Below are positions 1 to 8,536 of a DNA stretch of 45,104 bases, one piece after another; within the stretch, counting starts at the first letter, position 1, and each line of letters opens with the position of its first letter. Made by a program: the position numbers and the translations under genes. The stretch is from Bacteroidales bacterium (lineage in GTDB: Bacteria > Bacteroidota > Bacteroidia > Bacteroidales > Paludibacteraceae), in the NCBI GenBank assembly GCA_015061185.1, contig SUWZ01000026.1, positions 1 through 45,104 of the forward strand, given 5' to 3'. The notes beneath the pieces were generated by a model. It did no database searches. It worked only from the letters and a program-made list of their open reading frames with translations, and had not been told where the DNA came from.

Positions 1-2160
1 CTTAATACACCGAAAGAGAATGCTGTTACCATAGAAGATTTTGCAGACAAAAGAATTGTACTTATATCTGATGAAGCACATCATACGAATACTGCTACTA
101 AGAAAGGCAAGAAACCTGTTGTGACCGATAAGGGTTCTTTGTTCAATGAGGGTGATTTTGAATCAACCGAAGATTGGGAAAGCACTGTGATGAAAATTTT
201 TCATAGTAACGAAACCAATGTTTTGTTGGAGTTTACAGCAACAGAAGACTTTCAAGATACTAAAATTGCCGACAAGTATGAGAACAAAGTAATCTTCGAC
301 TATCCGTTGAAGAAGTTTCGTGAAGATGGCTACTCTAAAGACATATCGGTTGTTCAAAGCGATTTATCGCCAATAGACAGAGCTATTCAGTGCGTACTAT
401 TGAGTCAATACAAGAGAAAACTATTTTCAAGCATACATCAGGACATTAAGCCTGTGATGATGCTTAAATCTAAGACCATTGCAGAAAATAAAAAATTTTA
501 TGATGAGTTCGTTAATACAATTAAACGGCTGAATGTAGAAGATATTGAACATATCGCGACCAATGCAAAAGACGATATACTTGATGTATTCTCATATATA
601 ACAGAACAAAACATTGAATTTGAGAATTTGCTTCTTGAAATTAAAGAGGATTTTAAGGAAGAGAACTTGTTGCTTGTTGATGGTAACAACATCTCACCTG
701 ACAAACAATTGAAACTAAATTCATTGGAAGCAAAAGATAATGAGTTTCGTGTTGTATTCGCTGTTGATATGCTCAACGAGGGCTGGGATGTACTGAACCT
801 ATTCGATATTGTACGCCTTTACGAAACACGCGATTCAGGACACGGCAAGGTGGGTAAGACTACAATGCAGGAAGCTCAACTAATCGGTCGTGGAGCAAGA
901 TATATGCCTTTTACCGAACCTACAGGAGAGTTGAAAGTTAGAGAGCGCAAATATGACAACGACACAACAAATCGTTTAAGAATTTTAGAAACGTTGCACT
1001 ATCACAGCGTAAACAATCCTAAATATGTTACTGAACTTAAACAAGCGATGGTACAGACAGGTATTGTAGCCGAAAAGGTGAAAACGGTTGAACTAAAATT
1101 CAAAGACTCTTTCAAGAAAACATCACTTTATAATGACGGATATGTATTTGCGAATGAACTTGAGCCATATATGCTCAATGAGGAAATCACATCTTTAGGT
1201 GAAGCTATTTTGAACAAAGAATATAAAGTGCGCATAAAGAGTGGGGATATGAGTACGAGTCTGGTGTTTGAATCCGGAACATCATCAAACACAACCTCTG
1301 TACCTTATCGAGCATATAAATTTGGAGAGTTGGGTAATCACGTTATTCGTGCAGCAATCAATCGTTTCGAGACTTTTAAGTTTTCCAATCTTAAAGATAC
1401 CTATCCCAATTTAAAGTCCATCAAAGAGTTTATTGAGAGTAATTCCTATTTGGCAGGAGTAAATATTTCTATATATGCGAAACAAGAGGTATTAGACAAC
1501 ATGACTCAAAAAGAGAAACTCTTTTGTGCAATAGAGGTTCTCCGTCAGATAGAGCCATTGTTATCAAAAGGCGGAGTCGGATATAAGGGGACAAAATTGT
1601 TCAAACCTAAGCAGATAAAGGATGTGTTCCGTGAACGTACACAGAAATTCTCACTTGATGGTTCATCCGATAAGGAACTGGGTAAGTCTATGATGGAAAC
1701 CGAGAATACGTATCTGCGCATGGATTTGTCTAAGACCAATTGGCATGCATACGAAGATTGTTTCGGAACATCGGAAGAGAAGCATCTTATCCGATACATA
1801 GAGTCTATATATCCAAAACTTGCAGAAAAGTACCACGATATATATTTGCTACGCAATGAAAAGGATCTGAAAATTTATAGTTTCACTTCGGAAGATGCCT
1901 ATCAACCGGATTATGTCCTATTCTTGAAAAAGAAGAATGGTGCTAAGACGGACTATATTCAGATATTCATTGAACCCAAAGGAGAACATTTGAGAAGTAC
2001 CGACAAATGGAAAGAGGATGCGATGAAAGAAATTAGAGAAAATGCCGATATTCGTTTCTCTACTCAAAACAGCAACTTTAATGTGTGGGGGATGCCATTC
2101 TTCACAGAAAGCAAACGCGGCATTTTTGATGCCGAAATGAAAAATTCTTTGGAGATTTGA
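1..2160 (+). CDS. Type III restriction enzyme Res subunit, 5'-truncated by window edge
   Basis: The reading frame is open from base 1, so the protein starts before the window; 719 residues are visible. Superfamily 2 helicase motifs are present: a Walker B/DEAH box (SDEAHH, about nt 67-84), motif V (DMLNEGWDV, about nt 766-792) and motif VI (QLIGRGAR, about nt 880-900). A C-terminal PD-(D/E)xK nuclease signature follows (QPDYVLF, then IFIEPKGEH, about nt 1903-1990). This order is that of the Res subunit of type III restriction-modification systems, which translocates or switches on ATP hydrolysis and cleaves DNA together with a Mod methylase. The Walker A motif and any mod gene must lie upstream, outside the window. 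An orphan type III-like helicase-nuclease is the alternative. The C-terminus looks intact. Confidence 0.9.
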   Translation, partial: LNTPKENAVTIEDFADKRIVLISDEAHHTNTATKKGKKPVVTDKGSLFNEGDFESTEDWESTVMKIFHSNETNVLLEFTATEDFQDTKIADKYENKVIFDYPLKKFREDGYSKDISVVQSDLSPIDRAIQCVLLSQYKRKLFSSIHQDIKPVMMLKSKTIAENKKFYDEFVNTIKRLNVEDIEHIATNAKDDILDVFSYITEQNIEFENLLLEIKEDFKEENLLLVDGNNISPDKQLKLNSLEAKDNEFRVVFAVDMLNEGWDVLNLFDIVRLYETRDSGHGKVGKTTMQEAQLIGRGARYMPFTEPTGELKVRERKYDNDTTNRLRILETLHYHSVNNPKYVTELKQAMVQTGIVAEKVKTVELKFKDSFKKTSLYNDGYVFANELEPYMLNEEITSLGEAILNKEYKVRIKSGDMSTSLVFESGTSSNTTSVPYRAYKFGELGNHVIRAAINRFETFKFSNLKDTYPNLKSIKEFIESNSYLAGVNISIYAKQEVLDNMTQKEKLFCAIEVLRQIEPLLSKGGVGYKGTKLFKPKQIKDVFRERTQKFSLDGSSDKELGKSMMETENTYLRMDLSKTNWHAYEDCFGTSEEKHLIRYIESIYPKLAEKYHDIYLLRNEKDLKIYSFTSEDAYQPDYVLFLKKKNGAKTDYIQIFIEPKGEHLRSTDKWKEDAMKEIRENADIRFSTQNSNFNVWGMPFFTESKRGIFDAEMKNSLEI

Positions 2161-3042: not shown

Positions 3043-3102
3043 CACTATACATAATTTAGTGTAAATAAAAAAACGGTATTCAGAAATGAGACTCGTATTC
3101 TC
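3043..3102 (+). repeat. Divergent direct repeat copy 1 (IS-end-like)
   Basis: About 60 bp beginning CACTATACATAATTT recurs at 4078-4137 with roughly three quarters identity and one single-base indel. The most conserved parts are the first 15 bp, GTAAAT, and ATTCAGAAATGAG. The two copies bracket the orphan gene at 3256-3996 in the same orientation. No opposite arm was seen for this copy. Confidence 0.6.
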
Positions 3103-3996: not shown

Positions 3997-4077
3997 GCCA
4001 AACAAATCTATATTGAATCGGATCAAGCTATGTTTGATTATGATGTAATAAGGAGAAAGTAATATTGTCATCCCGGA

Positions 4078-4178
4078 CACTATACATAATTTTGCGTAAA
4101 TGGGAAAAACGAAATTCAGAAATGAGTTTTGTATTTTCATCATTATTTTTTTGTAAAAACATAAAATTATGTATAGTG
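4078..4178. mobile_element. Short inverted-repeat element (MITE-like), 101 bp
   Basis: The left arm (4078-4097, CACTATACATAATTTTGCGT) pairs with the right arm (4159-4178, ACATAAAATTATGTATAGTG), with mismatches only near the inner end. The about 60 bp between the arms have no coding potential. The left half repeats the sequence at 3043-3102. Terminal inverted repeats of this shape resemble the ends of IS256-like transposons, so a MITE or solo IS remnant is likely. A bidirectional terminator is the alternative. The flanks 3997-4077 and 4179-4371 hold no gene that I can support. Confidence 0.5.
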
Positions 4179-4371
4179 CCGACTAAAATGACAAATTTGA
4201 CTTTAAAATTGAGCCTATGATATAGAAAATCCATTAGTCCAATCGGTACAATATGGAAATTTATCTTCATTGCCTCTGATTAATTGAATTAAATGACTAT
4301 CGCTATGTTAATTCACAATTATGACTATCAAAATTTGCAATGCAATAATCATTAAAATTTTAGTAAAGCTA

Positions 4372-5019
4372 TTATCTCTTATCCGTTTGTAATGCTTTCC
4401 ATTCTGCCGGTATTGATAAATCAAAGCCGTTTGATAACTTTATGTTATCAGGTAATATCGCGTTCTTAAATTTTCTCTCGTACCTCATCATGTGAATAGG
4501 AGCACCACTACCCATTGTAGCCAAATTGCTTGAGAATTGATGAGGAGGGAAATAGACAAATACATTCACTTTTGCTTCTTTCGCTAACTCGACTGCGGGT
4601 ATCATATCGCTGTCCGCAGAAACGATTATTGCCAAATCACAATTACGCTGATAAGCATCAGCTACAATCTGAGTAGCAATACGAACATCCGATTCTTTTT
4701 CTTCGTATGTATGAATGATATTATGACATTTAAAACATTCTATCTCCTTCTTCAAATACTTGCCAAGAATAAGTTTAAATTTAGGATTCTCTTTATTTGC
4801 TTGAAAGAAGGCATCTTGCCTTTTGCATTTTTCTACATCAGTAGGTCTTGCTGAAAAATATTTAACTGCGATTAATTCTTGGTTAGGTTTCAAAAAAGAT
4901 TCCATAAGTTTTACTATGTCCAGCCAATAATACTTTTTCCATGGATACTTTTTGAGTCCATAGTAAAAATTAAATCCGTCAACATAGACAATGACTTTTT
5001 GCTTACTTTGTTCTTGCAT
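4372..5019 (-). CDS. NYN-domain (PIN-like) ribonuclease, 215 aa
   Basis: The protein has the NYN/LabA (DUF88) fold signatures: YVDGFNFYYG near residues 12-21 with Asp14 and Asn17, SDVRIATQIVADA with Asp111, and VSADSDMIPAVE with Asp136 and Asp138. These acidic residues bind metal in PIN-like nucleases. A CxxC pair (C95, C98) sits between strands and may bind zinc. The family cleaves RNA or is predicted to. I chose the ATG at 5019. The in-frame ATGs farther upstream fall at or before the probable transcription start and would translate a hairpin-rich leader. The leader contains a terminator-like hairpin just before this ATG (see the separate entry). The neighbours are accessory genes. Confidence 0.8.
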   Translation of the reverse strand: MQEQSKQKVIVYVDGFNFYYGLKKYPWKKYYWLDIVKLMESFLKPNQELIAVKYFSARPTDVEKCKRQDAFFQANKENPKFKLILGKYLKKEIECFKCHNIIHTYEEKESDVRIATQIVADAYQRNCDLAIIVSADSDMIPAVELAKEAKVNVFVYFPPHQFSSNLATMGSGAPIHMMRYERKFKNAILPDNIKLSNGFDLSIPAEWKALQTDKR

Positions 5020-5086
5020 ATTATAAAAAATAAGCCCTCTTATCGAGGGCGGGCCTTGGTATTTCCCAACCAAGGGGGATAATTTC
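5020..5086 (-). promoter_or_regulatory. Structured 5' leader with terminator-like hairpin before the NYN gene
   Basis: On the minus strand the leader can form two hairpins. The first pairs CCTTGGT (5069-5075) with ACCAAGG (5054-5060) around an 8-nt loop. The second pairs GCCCTC (5045-5050) with GAGGGC (5034-5039) around a 5-nt loop and is followed by TTATTTTTT. The second has the form of an intrinsic terminator and ends about 15 bases before the ATG at 5019. It could attenuate the nuclease gene or end a small RNA of about 60 nt. A leader peptide frame (MKLSPLVGKYQG...) is open through it and in frame with the nuclease, but starts at the probable transcription start. Confidence 0.6.
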
Positions 5087-5092
5087 ATACCG

Positions 5093-5123
5093 CAAAGATA
5101 CAAAATCTTATTTCTTTAAACAA
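5093..5123 (-). promoter_or_regulatory. Promoter of the NYN leader
   Basis: Minus-strand TATCTTTG (5093-5100) fits the -7 element, and TTG (5121-5123) lies 20 bp upstream, the spacing expected for the Bacteroidetes -33 element. Transcription would start near 5086. Confidence 0.65.
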
Positions 5124-5177
5124 AATAAATTGAGTATTTTCCTTACAATAGTTCGTTAAAAATGACTATATTTTTTT

Positions 5178-5285: not shown

Positions 5286-6611
5286 TTACATATCGTCTAT
5301 AGATAGACCTCTATAAATAAACTCATAGTTCTTGAATGTGCCGACAGCTTTAAAGAACATCTCGGATTTGGCTCTTAATACCGCTTCATCAAAGTTTTTC
5401 TCTTGACGCTTGACTTCAATAAACTCTATCTTGTTTTCCAACTCATCTTCAGATACTATGTCAATCTCATTTTCTCCCTTGCGGTCATGCCAATATCCAA
5501 GGCGAGTATATTCGCCAGACTCTTTCATTACTTCAATAAAGTAGCTTTCGAGAGATTTACCACTGAATGTTGAAAAGTCACGCTCAACTATCGTTCTCAA
5601 TCTGTCATTACCGCCAGCCTCGATAATGTGTGTATATTTGTATATGAAACGGAACCAGAATTTCAAGAACTGGTCATTGATAGCATAATGCACATTTTTA
5701 TTACTTGACTTCTCGTAAACAGGTTGCATCTTACTTATCAAACCATACTCCTCGCTCAGGTTTTTCAAGTAGCCAGACAGCTCTTTTATATTGAGAGCAT
5801 TTTCCAATTCTCTGCGTGTATTTCTACCTTGTGCAATGAGTGTAAGTATTGAGAAGTAGATACCATAGTCTTTGCCAAATTCATCGACAAGCATATTCTT
5901 ACCCTCAGGCAAAAAATAGGAATCACGCTCAAAGAACATATCAAGCATCTTCTTCTCAGTAAACTTCTTTCTGTCAATAAACAACTCAACATATTTAGCT
6001 ACACCGCCAGTCAGAGTATAAAGAGCCAACAAGTCAGACTTTTTATAGTCTGGGCAATATTCAGACATGATTTCTTTTAGGACCGAGGGCTTAAAAGGTC
6101 TAACATGCATTGTTTCTGTCTGTCTACCAAAAAGTGGTTGCTTCTTATCCTTGAAAATCTTATTCATCAAGGTGTTCACAGATCCTGCCACAATCAGGTT
6201 GATGTGAGCCTTATTTTTATAGCTATCCCATATATCTTGCATATCGGAATAGATAGATGGATTTATCCTATAGAAATCTTGGAATTCATCAATAAAAAGG
6301 TTGATATGCTGATTCTGAGACAATTCCATGATGAATTTGAATACGGCGGCAAAAGACATTCCCTTGCTGTCAAGCATTGGTATATTGAGCTTTGTGCGAA
6401 TCTCATCAACGAATATCTCGCATAGATCTGCTTCCGCTTTACGAGCAACAAAAAAGTATAGCATTGTCTTGTTCTCATAAAACTTCTTGACCATCTCAGT
6501 CTTACCAATACGACGTCTTCCTGTAATGATGGTAAATTGGCCTACCTCATGAGACAATTCCTCAATTTCTCTAAGTTTTTCAAACTCTTGTTTTCTATCA
6601 TAAAATCTCAT
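5286..6611 (-). CDS. AAA ATPase, ATPase_2/DUF234 type with nuclease-like C-terminus
   Basis: This 441-residue protein has a Walker A motif GRRRIGKT (residues 31-38) and Walker B LFIDEF (Asp108-Glu109). It belongs to the archaeal-type ATPase_2 (STAND-like) family. The middle (about 270-330) looks like a winged helix (NTRRELENALNIKELSGYL). The C-terminal DUF234 part carries an ENEIDIV...FIEVKRQ pattern that matches a PD-(D/E)xK nuclease core. The family is abundant in Bacteroidetes and archaea with unclear cellular role; defence or mobile-element functions are often proposed. I chose the ATG at 6611 because family members begin MxFYDRxxE; the longer frame to 6674 needs a TTG lying inside the promoter. 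A perfect palindrome covers the promoter start region. Confidence 0.8.
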   Translation of the reverse strand: MRFYDRKQEFEKLREIEELSHEVGQFTIITGRRRIGKTEMVKKFYENKTMLYFFVARKAEADLCEIFVDEIRTKLNIPMLDSKGMSFAAVFKFIMELSQNQHINLFIDEFQDFYRINPSIYSDMQDIWDSYKNKAHINLIVAGSVNTLMNKIFKDKKQPLFGRQTETMHVRPFKPSVLKEIMSEYCPDYKKSDLLALYTLTGGVAKYVELFIDRKKFTEKKMLDMFFERDSYFLPEGKNMLVDEFGKDYGIYFSILTLIAQGRNTRRELENALNIKELSGYLKNLSEEYGLISKMQPVYEKSSNKNVHYAINDQFLKFWFRFIYKYTHIIEAGGNDRLRTIVERDFSTFSGKSLESYFIEVMKESGEYTRLGYWHDRKGENEIDIVSEDELENKIEFIEVKRQEKNFDEAVLRAKSEMFFKAVGTFKNYEFIYRGLSIDDM

Positions 6612-6635
6612 ATCTATAAGTTTTATCGTAATACT

Positions 6636-6663
6636 CATTACCGTAACGGCAGTTACGGTAATG
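6636..6663 (-). promoter_or_regulatory. Perfect palindromic operator candidate
   Basis: CATTACCGTAAC (6636-6647) and GTTACGGTAATG (6652-6663) are exact inverted repeats around GGCA. The site abuts the -7 element (6664-6671), so it covers the expected transcription start of the ATPase gene, 25 bp before its ATG. Symmetry and position suit a repressor binding as a dimer. No regulator gene is adjacent, so autoregulation is possible. Confidence 0.7.
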
Positions 6664-6695
6664 CAAAAGTACAAATAATTTTGTTATTAGTGCAA
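6664..6695 (-). promoter_or_regulatory. Promoter of the ATPase_2 gene
   Basis: Minus-strand TACTTTTG (6664-6671) matches TAnnTTTG, with TTG (6693-6695) 21 bp upstream. It lies directly next to the palindrome at 6636-6663. Confidence 0.6.
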
Positions 6696-7297: not shown

Positions 7298-8536
7298 CTA
7301 ATTCAGAAGGTAATCAAATACATTCATCATTATAATGCCATTGGGCATAGTATGCGTTGGTATGTCATCTGCTGTGATAATAATTTTTGTAAAAAAGTCG
7401 TCTGTTATGGTTAGTGAGCGTTGTTCCTGCTTCTGTTTATCTTCATCTGGCAAAGAATAAGCAGATTGTATATACACCCTTTCACTACCTCTATTACAAA
7501 CGAAATCAACCTCAAGTGTGGTTCTGGTAGTCTTACCTTCATCATCTTTTTGATATAAAGTAACGCAGCCTACATCTACCTTATAGCCTTTACCTATCAA
7601 ATGGTTATATATGATATTCTCCATAATATGAGTAGGTTCAACTTGTCGGAAATTCAAAAGTGCATTACGCAACCCAAGATCAGCAAAATAATATTTGTAA
7701 GGAGTATCTATATACTTCTTTCCTTTAATATCATAGCGTACTGCTTTATTGATGAGGAAAGAATCAATAAAATAGTCTATATATGTTTTTATTGTATTGT
7801 GGCTTATTTTCACCTTTTTCTCACTAACAAATGTGTTTGCTAGTTTGTTGGGATTAGTCAATGCTCCTATATTAGATGCCAAGAGAGAGAATAATTCTTC
7901 TAATTCTGCATCATTTTTCACATTATTGCGGTCGATTATATCGCTTAAATATGTTTCTTTAAGTAACTCATGAAGTATTTCTGCTTTTCGTGCTTTATCC
8001 TTCTCAATGACAACCATTGGTAACCCTCCATAATAAATATAATCTCGCCACAATGAAGATGTGTCATCATTTGACTTTTCTTTTATTTCCTTAAACGATA
8101 GCGGCTGAAGGTGGATTTGAACTCCTCTTCCTCTGAATTCACTAACGATATCAGAAGAAAGGAACTTTGCATTACTTCCTGTTACATATACATCAAGGTT
8201 ATCTATGTGTAGAAAACCATTGAGTACATCTACGAAATCCTCCAGCATCTGAACTTCGTCAATCATCACATAATACATCTGCGAATCTTGCTTTGTCAGA
8301 TTTTCGACATATTCATATAAAGTTTCTGCCTTGCGATATTTACGATGAACAAATGAGTCAAGTTTTATTTCGATGATATGGCTGGTATCAGCACCATTAT
8401 CTAAAAGATGTTGTTTATAAAGGTTGAGTAGCAGATACGATTTGCCAACACGTCGTAACCCAGTAACAATCTTTATCAAATGATTATGCTTGCTACTTAT
8501 CAACTTTTCAATGTAATGTTTTCTTTCGAATTTCAT
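7298..8536 (-). CDS. AAA ATPase with DUF4143 C-terminal domain
   Basis: This 412-residue protein has Walker A GLRRVGKS (residues 26-33), Walker B VMIDEVQ (Asp93-Glu94) and a sensor-like VTGSNAKFLSSD around 140-150. The C-terminal part has the DUF4143 look: YYFADLGLRNALLNF, then LEVDFVCNRGSERVYIQSAY, a degenerate nuclease-like core. Such ATPases are very common in Bacteroidetes accessory DNA; their function is not settled. The start at 8536 gives the expected family N-terminus (MKFERKHYIEKL). The gene has its own terminator and promoter region and sits between direct repeats A1 and A2, which suggests that it arrived by recombination or on a mobile segment. Confidence 0.85.
   Translation of the reverse strand: MKFERKHYIEKLISSKHNHLIKIVTGLRRVGKSYLLLNLYKQHLLDNGADTSHIIEIKLDSFVHRKYRKAETLYEYVENLTKQDSQMYYVMIDEVQMLEDFVDVLNGFLHIDNLDVYVTGSNAKFLSSDIVSEFRGRGVQIHLQPLSFKEIKEKSNDDTSSLWRDYIYYGGLPMVVIEKDKARKAEILHELLKETYLSDIIDRNNVKNDAELEELFSLLASNIGALTNPNKLANTFVSEKKVKISHNTIKTYIDYFIDSFLINKAVRYDIKGKKYIDTPYKYYFADLGLRNALLNFRQVEPTHIMENIIYNHLIGKGYKVDVGCVTLYQKDDEGKTTRTTLEVDFVCNRGSERVYIQSAYSLPDEDKQKQEQRSLTITDDFFTKIIITADDIPTHTMPNGIIMMNVFDYLLN

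Follow-up and report, generated by a model that had tools for sequence, protein, structure and literature searches.

A predicted structured RNA beside a NYN ribonuclease gene of a Bacteroidales bacterium: a candidate two-part module

A NYN (PIN-like) ribonuclease gene in the genome of a Bacteroidales bacterium is preceded by a promoter and two hairpins, raising the question of whether these merely attenuate the gene in cis or make up an RNA with a function of its own. A sequence-only reading of the window (the whole 45,104-nucleotide stretch analysed, which is contig G000:C10 in a draft genome of 2.9 Mb) had named two options: either the nuclease is attenuated or regulates itself, or RNA and nuclease form a pair of a type not described. 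Our comparison of related loci shows a covarying RNA structure with its own promoter and terminator, co-inherited with the nuclease and frequently surviving without it. On these comparisons we put at about 0.6 the probability that the locus is a two-part module, in which a structured RNA would bind and inhibit the NYN ribonuclease.

The NYN gene and its predicted leader RNA

The window protein matches Pfam NYN at 51.3 bits (cut-off 24.2), bearing out its earlier description as PIN-like, and this is its sole Pfam match at E 0.001, with no match to Abi_2 or to ToxN/CptN/TenpN. The PADLOC profile HEC-09 (PDLC04163, an Hma-embedded candidate), which also matches five distant relatives, scores 204.3 bits over residues 7-208 of 215. 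Acidic residues D14, D111, D136 and D138 are conserved and a NYN fold with an acidic active site is confirmed; among solved structures, 2qip alone matches in sequence, and the best fold matches are 2qip and the NYN domain of MARF1. The nearest named relatives belong to Paludibacteraceae/Bacteroidales metagenome genomes. The family is patchy in the order, with matches in 24 of 393 genomes (6 of 395 for the class, the window genome being in both counts), and relatives occur on viral contigs and small Enterobacteriaceae plasmids, further loci having been drawn from viral contigs (40), phages (two records, both opened) and plasmids (94 records, six opened).

Table 1. Features of the window discussed in the text, with the basis of each assignment.
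Feature	Position	Strand	Basis
Type III restriction enzyme, part	121-2157		297.2 bits
NYN (PIN-like) ribonuclease gene, 215 aa + stop, PADLOC HEC-09	4372-5019	-	profile matches
Predicted small RNA, class A, ~62 nt	5025-5086	-	promoter and terminator
Intrinsic terminator, GCCCTC-GATAA-GAGGGC (5050-5034) then TTATTTTTT (5033-5025)	5025-5050	-	sequence and fold
Hairpin 1, CCTTGGT/ACCAAGG, conserved purine-rich loop	5054-5075	-	fold and covariation, 12 sequences
Promoter, Bacteroidota type: TTTG (5124-5121), N20, TATCTTTG (5100-5093)	5093-5124	-	sequence
PADLOC candidate PDC-S27	5286-6674		profile match
PADLOC candidate PDC-S01	7298-8536		profile match

The elements that the sequence-only reading had placed ahead of the gene are all present (Table 1). 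The promoter is one which we take to follow the Bacteroidota consensus, and the 5' end of the RNA is inferred from it, presumably at the usual Bacteroidetes spacing; the 3' end is set by the terminator. The 7-bp hairpin recurs with covariation, and the GCCCTC/GAGGGC stem with its tail, put at about 15 nt before the start codon, reads as an intrinsic terminator whose stem, the last of the RNA, ends 14 nt before the ATG at 5019. Folding of the 71-nt leader gave -22.5 kcal/mol, compared with -14.6 +/- 2.8 in shuffles (z -2.8; 3 of 200 shuffles at least as good), a modest result alone, which leaves some room for chance, that is, for the ordinary terminator of an upstream gene lying beside a random hairpin. 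The window RNA is lifted above chance by comparison with its homologues, with their promoters, terminators and different arms. The leader has one match only in its own genome, itself, and an Rfam scan of the window at gathering score gave no match to the RNA.

Tandem and divergent RNAs among related loci

The leader recurs in three relatives (L012, L013 and L015, at 78, 67 and 60% identity) with a like loop and altered stems. Across 12 sequences, 97.2% of hairpin 1 cells form standard pairs, compared with at most 59.7% when the partner strand is slid by 1 to 3 columns, a lenient control because the structure was drawn from the same 12 sequences. Two-sided changes occur in 5 of 6 pairs (1.5 in shuffles, which do not preserve relatedness), and this count is the stronger measure. 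Homologous leaders, to which the sequence-only reading had looked for conserved stems, thus keep hairpin 1 with two-sided changes, which favours the RNA. The covariance model R1, when run on 37 loci, gave 16 full-length matches; 12 of these built the model, among them the window RNA (49.9 bits), and four did not (L047, L089, L098 and L101). All 16 of these class A RNAs have TAnnTTTG within 60 nt upstream, a motif found in 2.6% of 60-nt stretches sampled at random from the collected loci (unmatched for base composition), and all 16 are followed by a terminator, with 16 different 5' arms.

In class A only 9-32 nt separate the end of the terminator stem from the start codon used, too little for a second promoter. 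This arrangement would suit a leader that acts in cis only, its hairpin and terminator attenuating transcription of the nuclease until relieved by a signal or by self-cleavage, with no separate RNA function, and a comparable cis effect is described in the available text on AbiF/RCd22 (PMC12373285). Against it, the loop and structure of hairpin 1 are conserved, whereas the terminator arms all differ. A leader peptide was considered and rejected: although the reading frame is open in the window, the open sequence in frame ahead of the start is anywhere from 12 to 111 nt long over 12 class A loci, so no such peptide is conserved. The one candidate pseudoknot pairing tried, between a 5' CCC and a loop GGG, forms pairs in 66.7% of cells and has no two-sided change.

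Several loci carry other structures. L040, labelled class A by eye, scores only 14 bits with R1; three loci (L035, L036 and L045) represent a further RNA class, whose hairpin 1 has a TTTCTT loop; and L004, L005/L041, L028, L052 and L090 have other or unplaced hairpins. The more distant NYN gene of L007 (G026) is preceded by a promoter and a single terminator hairpin enclosing an inner hairpin, as if the two had fused, and the more distant NYN genes of L008 and L009, outside the family, have no hairpin leader. That tandem repeats are absent, as remarked earlier from the sequence, is true of the window RNA, a single hairpin by sequence and fold. Among three plasmid leaders checked, only that of L022, an enterobacterial plasmid relative, is repeated, with two imperfect 28-nt direct repeats (561-641; 53 nt apart, 89% identical) before the terminator, which hint at the arrays of repeats that make up type III antitoxins. 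Exact class A patterns matched viral contigs twice, once adjoining an intact NYN gene and once beside a gene whose NYN matches cover the first 26 residues only; the one match there to a looser DNA pattern, L014, lies inside a coding sequence of a filamentous-phage-like contig and was taken as chance.

A subset of NYN genes without a tandem terminator, in Bacteroidota and Thermus, is accompanied by a class B RNA that would be transcribed divergently, away from the nuclease. On the opposite strand lie, in order, a promoter, AACANC, a hairpin tipped GATAGYATC, GACGCC...GGCGTT and a T-rich tail. An alignment of 13 such sequences, including that of Thermus (L019) and one RNA with a NYN remnant (L046), is 99.0% paired; it excludes L020 and L053, whose B-like RNAs were assigned by eye. 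Two-sided changes are found in 5 of 8 pairs (3.3 in shuffles, 12 of 500 of which reach 5) and in 18 cells, compared with 5.4 in shuffles. TAnnTTTG stands within 60 nt upstream in 12 of 12 Bacteroidota class B RNAs, the Thermus RNA being outside this count, at the same background of 2.6%. No match to the exact class B pattern was found in the viral contigs, and an Rfam scan of 18 related loci gave no match at the NYN-adjacent RNAs, its six hits elsewhere being RNAI and tRNA.

Its divergent orientation means that the class B RNA is not merely a leader, and argues for action in trans. The cis-only explanation would have to accommodate an RNA which points away from the gene with its anatomy unchanged, as well as RNA genes surviving beside nuclease scraps (L046 and L098) or none (L101). 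Since class B and orphan RNAs are unexplained by it, cis attenuation alone is insufficient, and we regard it as an unlikely account of the locus.

Co-inheritance with the nuclease and RNAs without one

For a null test, 68 different NYN sequences were clustered at 80% identity into 60 clusters, 58 of which had enough upstream sequence. A tandem intrinsic terminator, with its end 4-60 nt ahead of the start, was found in 36 of the 58, compared with 6 of 253 clusters of control ORFs, namely other ORFs of the same loci (Fisher p 1e-25), and a divergent terminator only in another 13, compared with 16 of 253. The script found neither in nine NYN clusters. By eye, and unscored, a class B RNA or hairpin-terminator with long loops or a mismatch can be made out in L030, L094, L088, L079 and L084, weaker elements in L060 and L071, and one in L018 at a distance of 110 nt upstream; L021 shows none. 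Taken with covariation and the RNA's own promoter, the 36/58 and 6/253 counts refute the chance association considered above, the probability of which we take to be practically negligible.

In a quick tree of 62 NYN proteins (six of the 68 rows, being short, broken or upstream-less, were left out), ten class B NYNs make up the clade starred on the tree, Thermus included, and L020 (Microbacterium) is the only class B NYN outside it. RNA class labels had been given by eye before the tree was built. Counted on the tree with treekit, class A changes state once and class B twice, and with so few changes the type of RNA tracks the type of nuclease across phyla. Searched from the nuclease side, among 21 intact NYN genes with upstream sequence in the order and class (L037, at a contig end, is excluded), an RNA was found in 19 by script and in 21 by eye.

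Searches starting from the RNA gave 42 places, 17 of them in one genus, at which the adjacent nuclease is intact in 13, broken in 15 and missing in 14. R1, run over 295 genomes of the order, gave six hits, with the nuclease intact in three, disrupted in two and absent in one: in L098 NYN matches cover only about the first 43 residues, in two frames, in L099 the C-terminus no longer fits the family, and L101 has a promoter, a new stem and a terminator, but no NYN. R2, the class B search, covered 295 genomes of the order (E up to 0.01), 232 from the class and a further 223 from the phylum (both E up to 0.001), and gave 36 places in 32 genomes, with the nuclease intact at 10, disrupted at 13 and absent within about 1.5 kb at 13. 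Seventeen of these places, in 14 genomes, are non-independent because they belong to the same genus (5 intact, 7 disrupted, 5 absent; 5, 6 and 8 for the other 19); L131 and L132 are identical in RNA and flank, and the hits of L111, L136 and L139 are weak (29.6, 30.0 and 31.1 bits).

Beside disrupted nucleases, at least 7 of 8 stem pairs are kept in 12 of 13 RNAs and a terminator in all 13. RNAs that lack a nuclease keep these elements less often, the stem in 10 of 13 and the terminator in 9 of 13, two of the nine being doubtful, with two RNAs not located. Class B was scored with a looser terminator rule, the terminators of L112 and L138 are doubtful, and the script located no RNA in L134, L136 and L139. 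L046 has an intact class B RNA next to a C-terminal scrap of the nuclease, alongside a second NYN gene with its own hairpin RNA. Two class B RNAs lacking a NYN gene (L109 and L111, RNA at 1501-1553) lie antisense in restriction-modification-like loci with, by eye, methyltransferase-like, ORF6N-like and helicase-like ORFs. The closest relative of the window gene (L003/L011 of G012, 99% identity) is without the RNA and without its first 14 residues, D14 among them, a loss that sits 161 nt from a contig end.

The RNA-first and nuclease-first searches are conditioned differently and their numbers do not form one test; persistence of the RNA is partly ascertainment, because the RNA-first counts require an RNA that still fits the model, and many disruptions come from draft or metagenome assemblies, in which some stops or frameshifts may be errors. 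Read with this in mind, the searches show an asymmetry of the kind expected if the nuclease were not tolerated without its RNA. That the RNA is often kept after the nuclease is broken suggests that it holds the nuclease in check.

Two other roles for the RNA have to be weighed here. Co-inheritance and a conserved loop would suit any RNA-protein partnership, including one in which the RNA, as a cofactor, guide or decoy sensor, switches on or directs the nuclease instead of inhibiting it, and a cofactor would need to lie, as the RNA does, beside all 21 intact Bacteroidota nucleases examined (19 by script). A cofactor has no clear reason to outlast its enzyme, yet structured RNAs are common beside broken or missing nucleases, and no variable, guide-like segment was seen except the terminator arms; we consider such a role decidedly unlikely. 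The 13 of 36 class B places without a NYN gene within reach might be those of an independent regulatory small RNA that base-pairs, for instance, with mRNA of the nuclease or of other genes. Duplex prediction, covering own and swapped nuclease mRNA starts only, found the own pairing stronger in just 4 of 12 class A and 5 of 11 class B cases, the conserved positions are those of the hairpin loop and stem, and RNA class tracks the NYN tree, all of which make this explanation very unlikely. Of the two options in the sequence-only reading, the RNA-nuclease pair is thus upheld by covariation, agreement with the NYN tree, divergent order and RNAs kept beside broken nucleases, and pure cis attenuation gains no support as the general function.

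A proposed mechanism and its relation to known systems

For the preferred reading, an RNA that inhibits its nuclease, we propose the following scheme, in which transcription, RNA-protein binding, inhibition, toxicity and a phage trigger are all steps that we infer. A dedicated promoter would give rise to a short structured RNA, consisting of a hairpin with a conserved loop followed by an intrinsic terminator; most transcripts would stop there, and rare read-through would supply the mRNA of the NYN ribonuclease. The RNA would bind the nuclease, most likely via hairpin 1, and keep it inactive, until loss of the RNA supply or a phage trigger freed the enzyme to cleave RNA of the cell or of the phage. 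The class A terminator would set the excess of RNA over nuclease mRNA, as in type III toxin-antitoxin (TA) systems and AbiF/RCd22, and probably also limits nuclease expression; in class B the same logic would hold with the RNA made from its own divergent unit. The RNA may also have a life of its own, given the class B RNAs found apart from any NYN gene.

Two known systems come close, as far as the available texts describe them. AbiF/RCd22 shares its own promoter, a short hairpin RNA, an intrinsic terminator and a toxic protein gene without an intervening promoter, as well as a phage context, and its RNA acts in cis and in trans (PMC12373285). Its toxin is an Abi_2/AbiD/F protein linked to Cas13 and not a NYN protein, its RNA has two copies of the abiF motif (RF03085) whereas the RNAs here match no Rfam family, and we met no divergent gene order for it in that text (PMC12373285). 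Type III TA systems (ToxIN, CptIN, TenpIN) share the class A plan of single promoter, RNA, Rho-independent terminator and endoribonuclease gene, but their toxins have a ToxN/Kid-like instead of a NYN/PIN fold, their antitoxins are tandem repeat arrays in place of one hairpin, for which the single pseudoknot pairing tried gained no support from covariation, and the divergent order of class B departs from theirs (PMC5086642). In both, the terminator is described as giving an excess of RNA over toxin mRNA (PMC5086642, PMC12373285). Because it departs from type III TA in two defining features, toxin family and repeat array, we do not file the module there, although it would work like one.

As for the protein, HEC-09 is the same family, but the PADLOC model covers the protein only. 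In the text available, a Pseudomonas syringae study ties HEC-09 to phage susceptibility, not resistance (PMC12447246), and a report of several antiviral HECs, HEC-06 included, makes no mention of HEC-09 in the part available (PMC12988326). A CRISPR-associated NYN protein of Bacteroides fragilis, likewise compared with 2qip and MARF1, shares the NYN fold and three conserved Asp residues and shows Mn-dependent, sequence-nonspecific cleavage of single-stranded RNA (PMC11346440). It belongs to a type III CRISPR locus with a proposed role in crRNA trimming, and the available text notes no hairpin RNA partner (PMC11346440). Our search of full-text literature, with preprints and the HEC-defining paper outside its scope, found no RNA partner of NYN or HEC-09. 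A prior description is possible, and the module is best read as ToxIN- or AbiF/RCd22-like, with another fold, other RNAs and a partly different gene order.

More broadly, the chances seem to us about evenly balanced that HEC-09, instead of being a system of one gene, is the toxin in a widespread and undescribed type of module with an RNA antitoxin. Every NYN clade would then be paired with a hairpin RNA of its own, tandem or divergent, and the module would reach from Bacteroidota, Thermus, Actinobacteria and Proteobacteria to viral contigs and small plasmids; where the nuclease was lost, orphan RNAs would be relics or would have been retained as anti-toxins. If so, a candidate anti-phage nuclease family would have a missing RNA half, experiments on the protein by itself would be aimed at the wrong target, and a NYN/PIN-fold nuclease would join the RNA-controlled toxins. 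One partnership in two opposite gene orders would imply action in trans, the compact RNA-protein pairs would lend themselves to studying how a hairpin of about 35 nt silences a nuclease, and with the orphan RNAs one could test for immunity to such elements that rests on the antitoxin only.

The surroundings of the window module are a defence island, made up of the restriction enzyme part, PDC-S27 and PDC-S01 (Table 1). Downstream of the NYN gene lies a MITE-like imperfect inverted repeat (CACTATACATAATTTT ... AAAATTATGTATAGTG, 4060-4205), with a partial second copy, 82% identical, 1 kb away (3043-3102); these are its only two genome matches at E 0.001, 40 of 56 first-look candidates having been scored.
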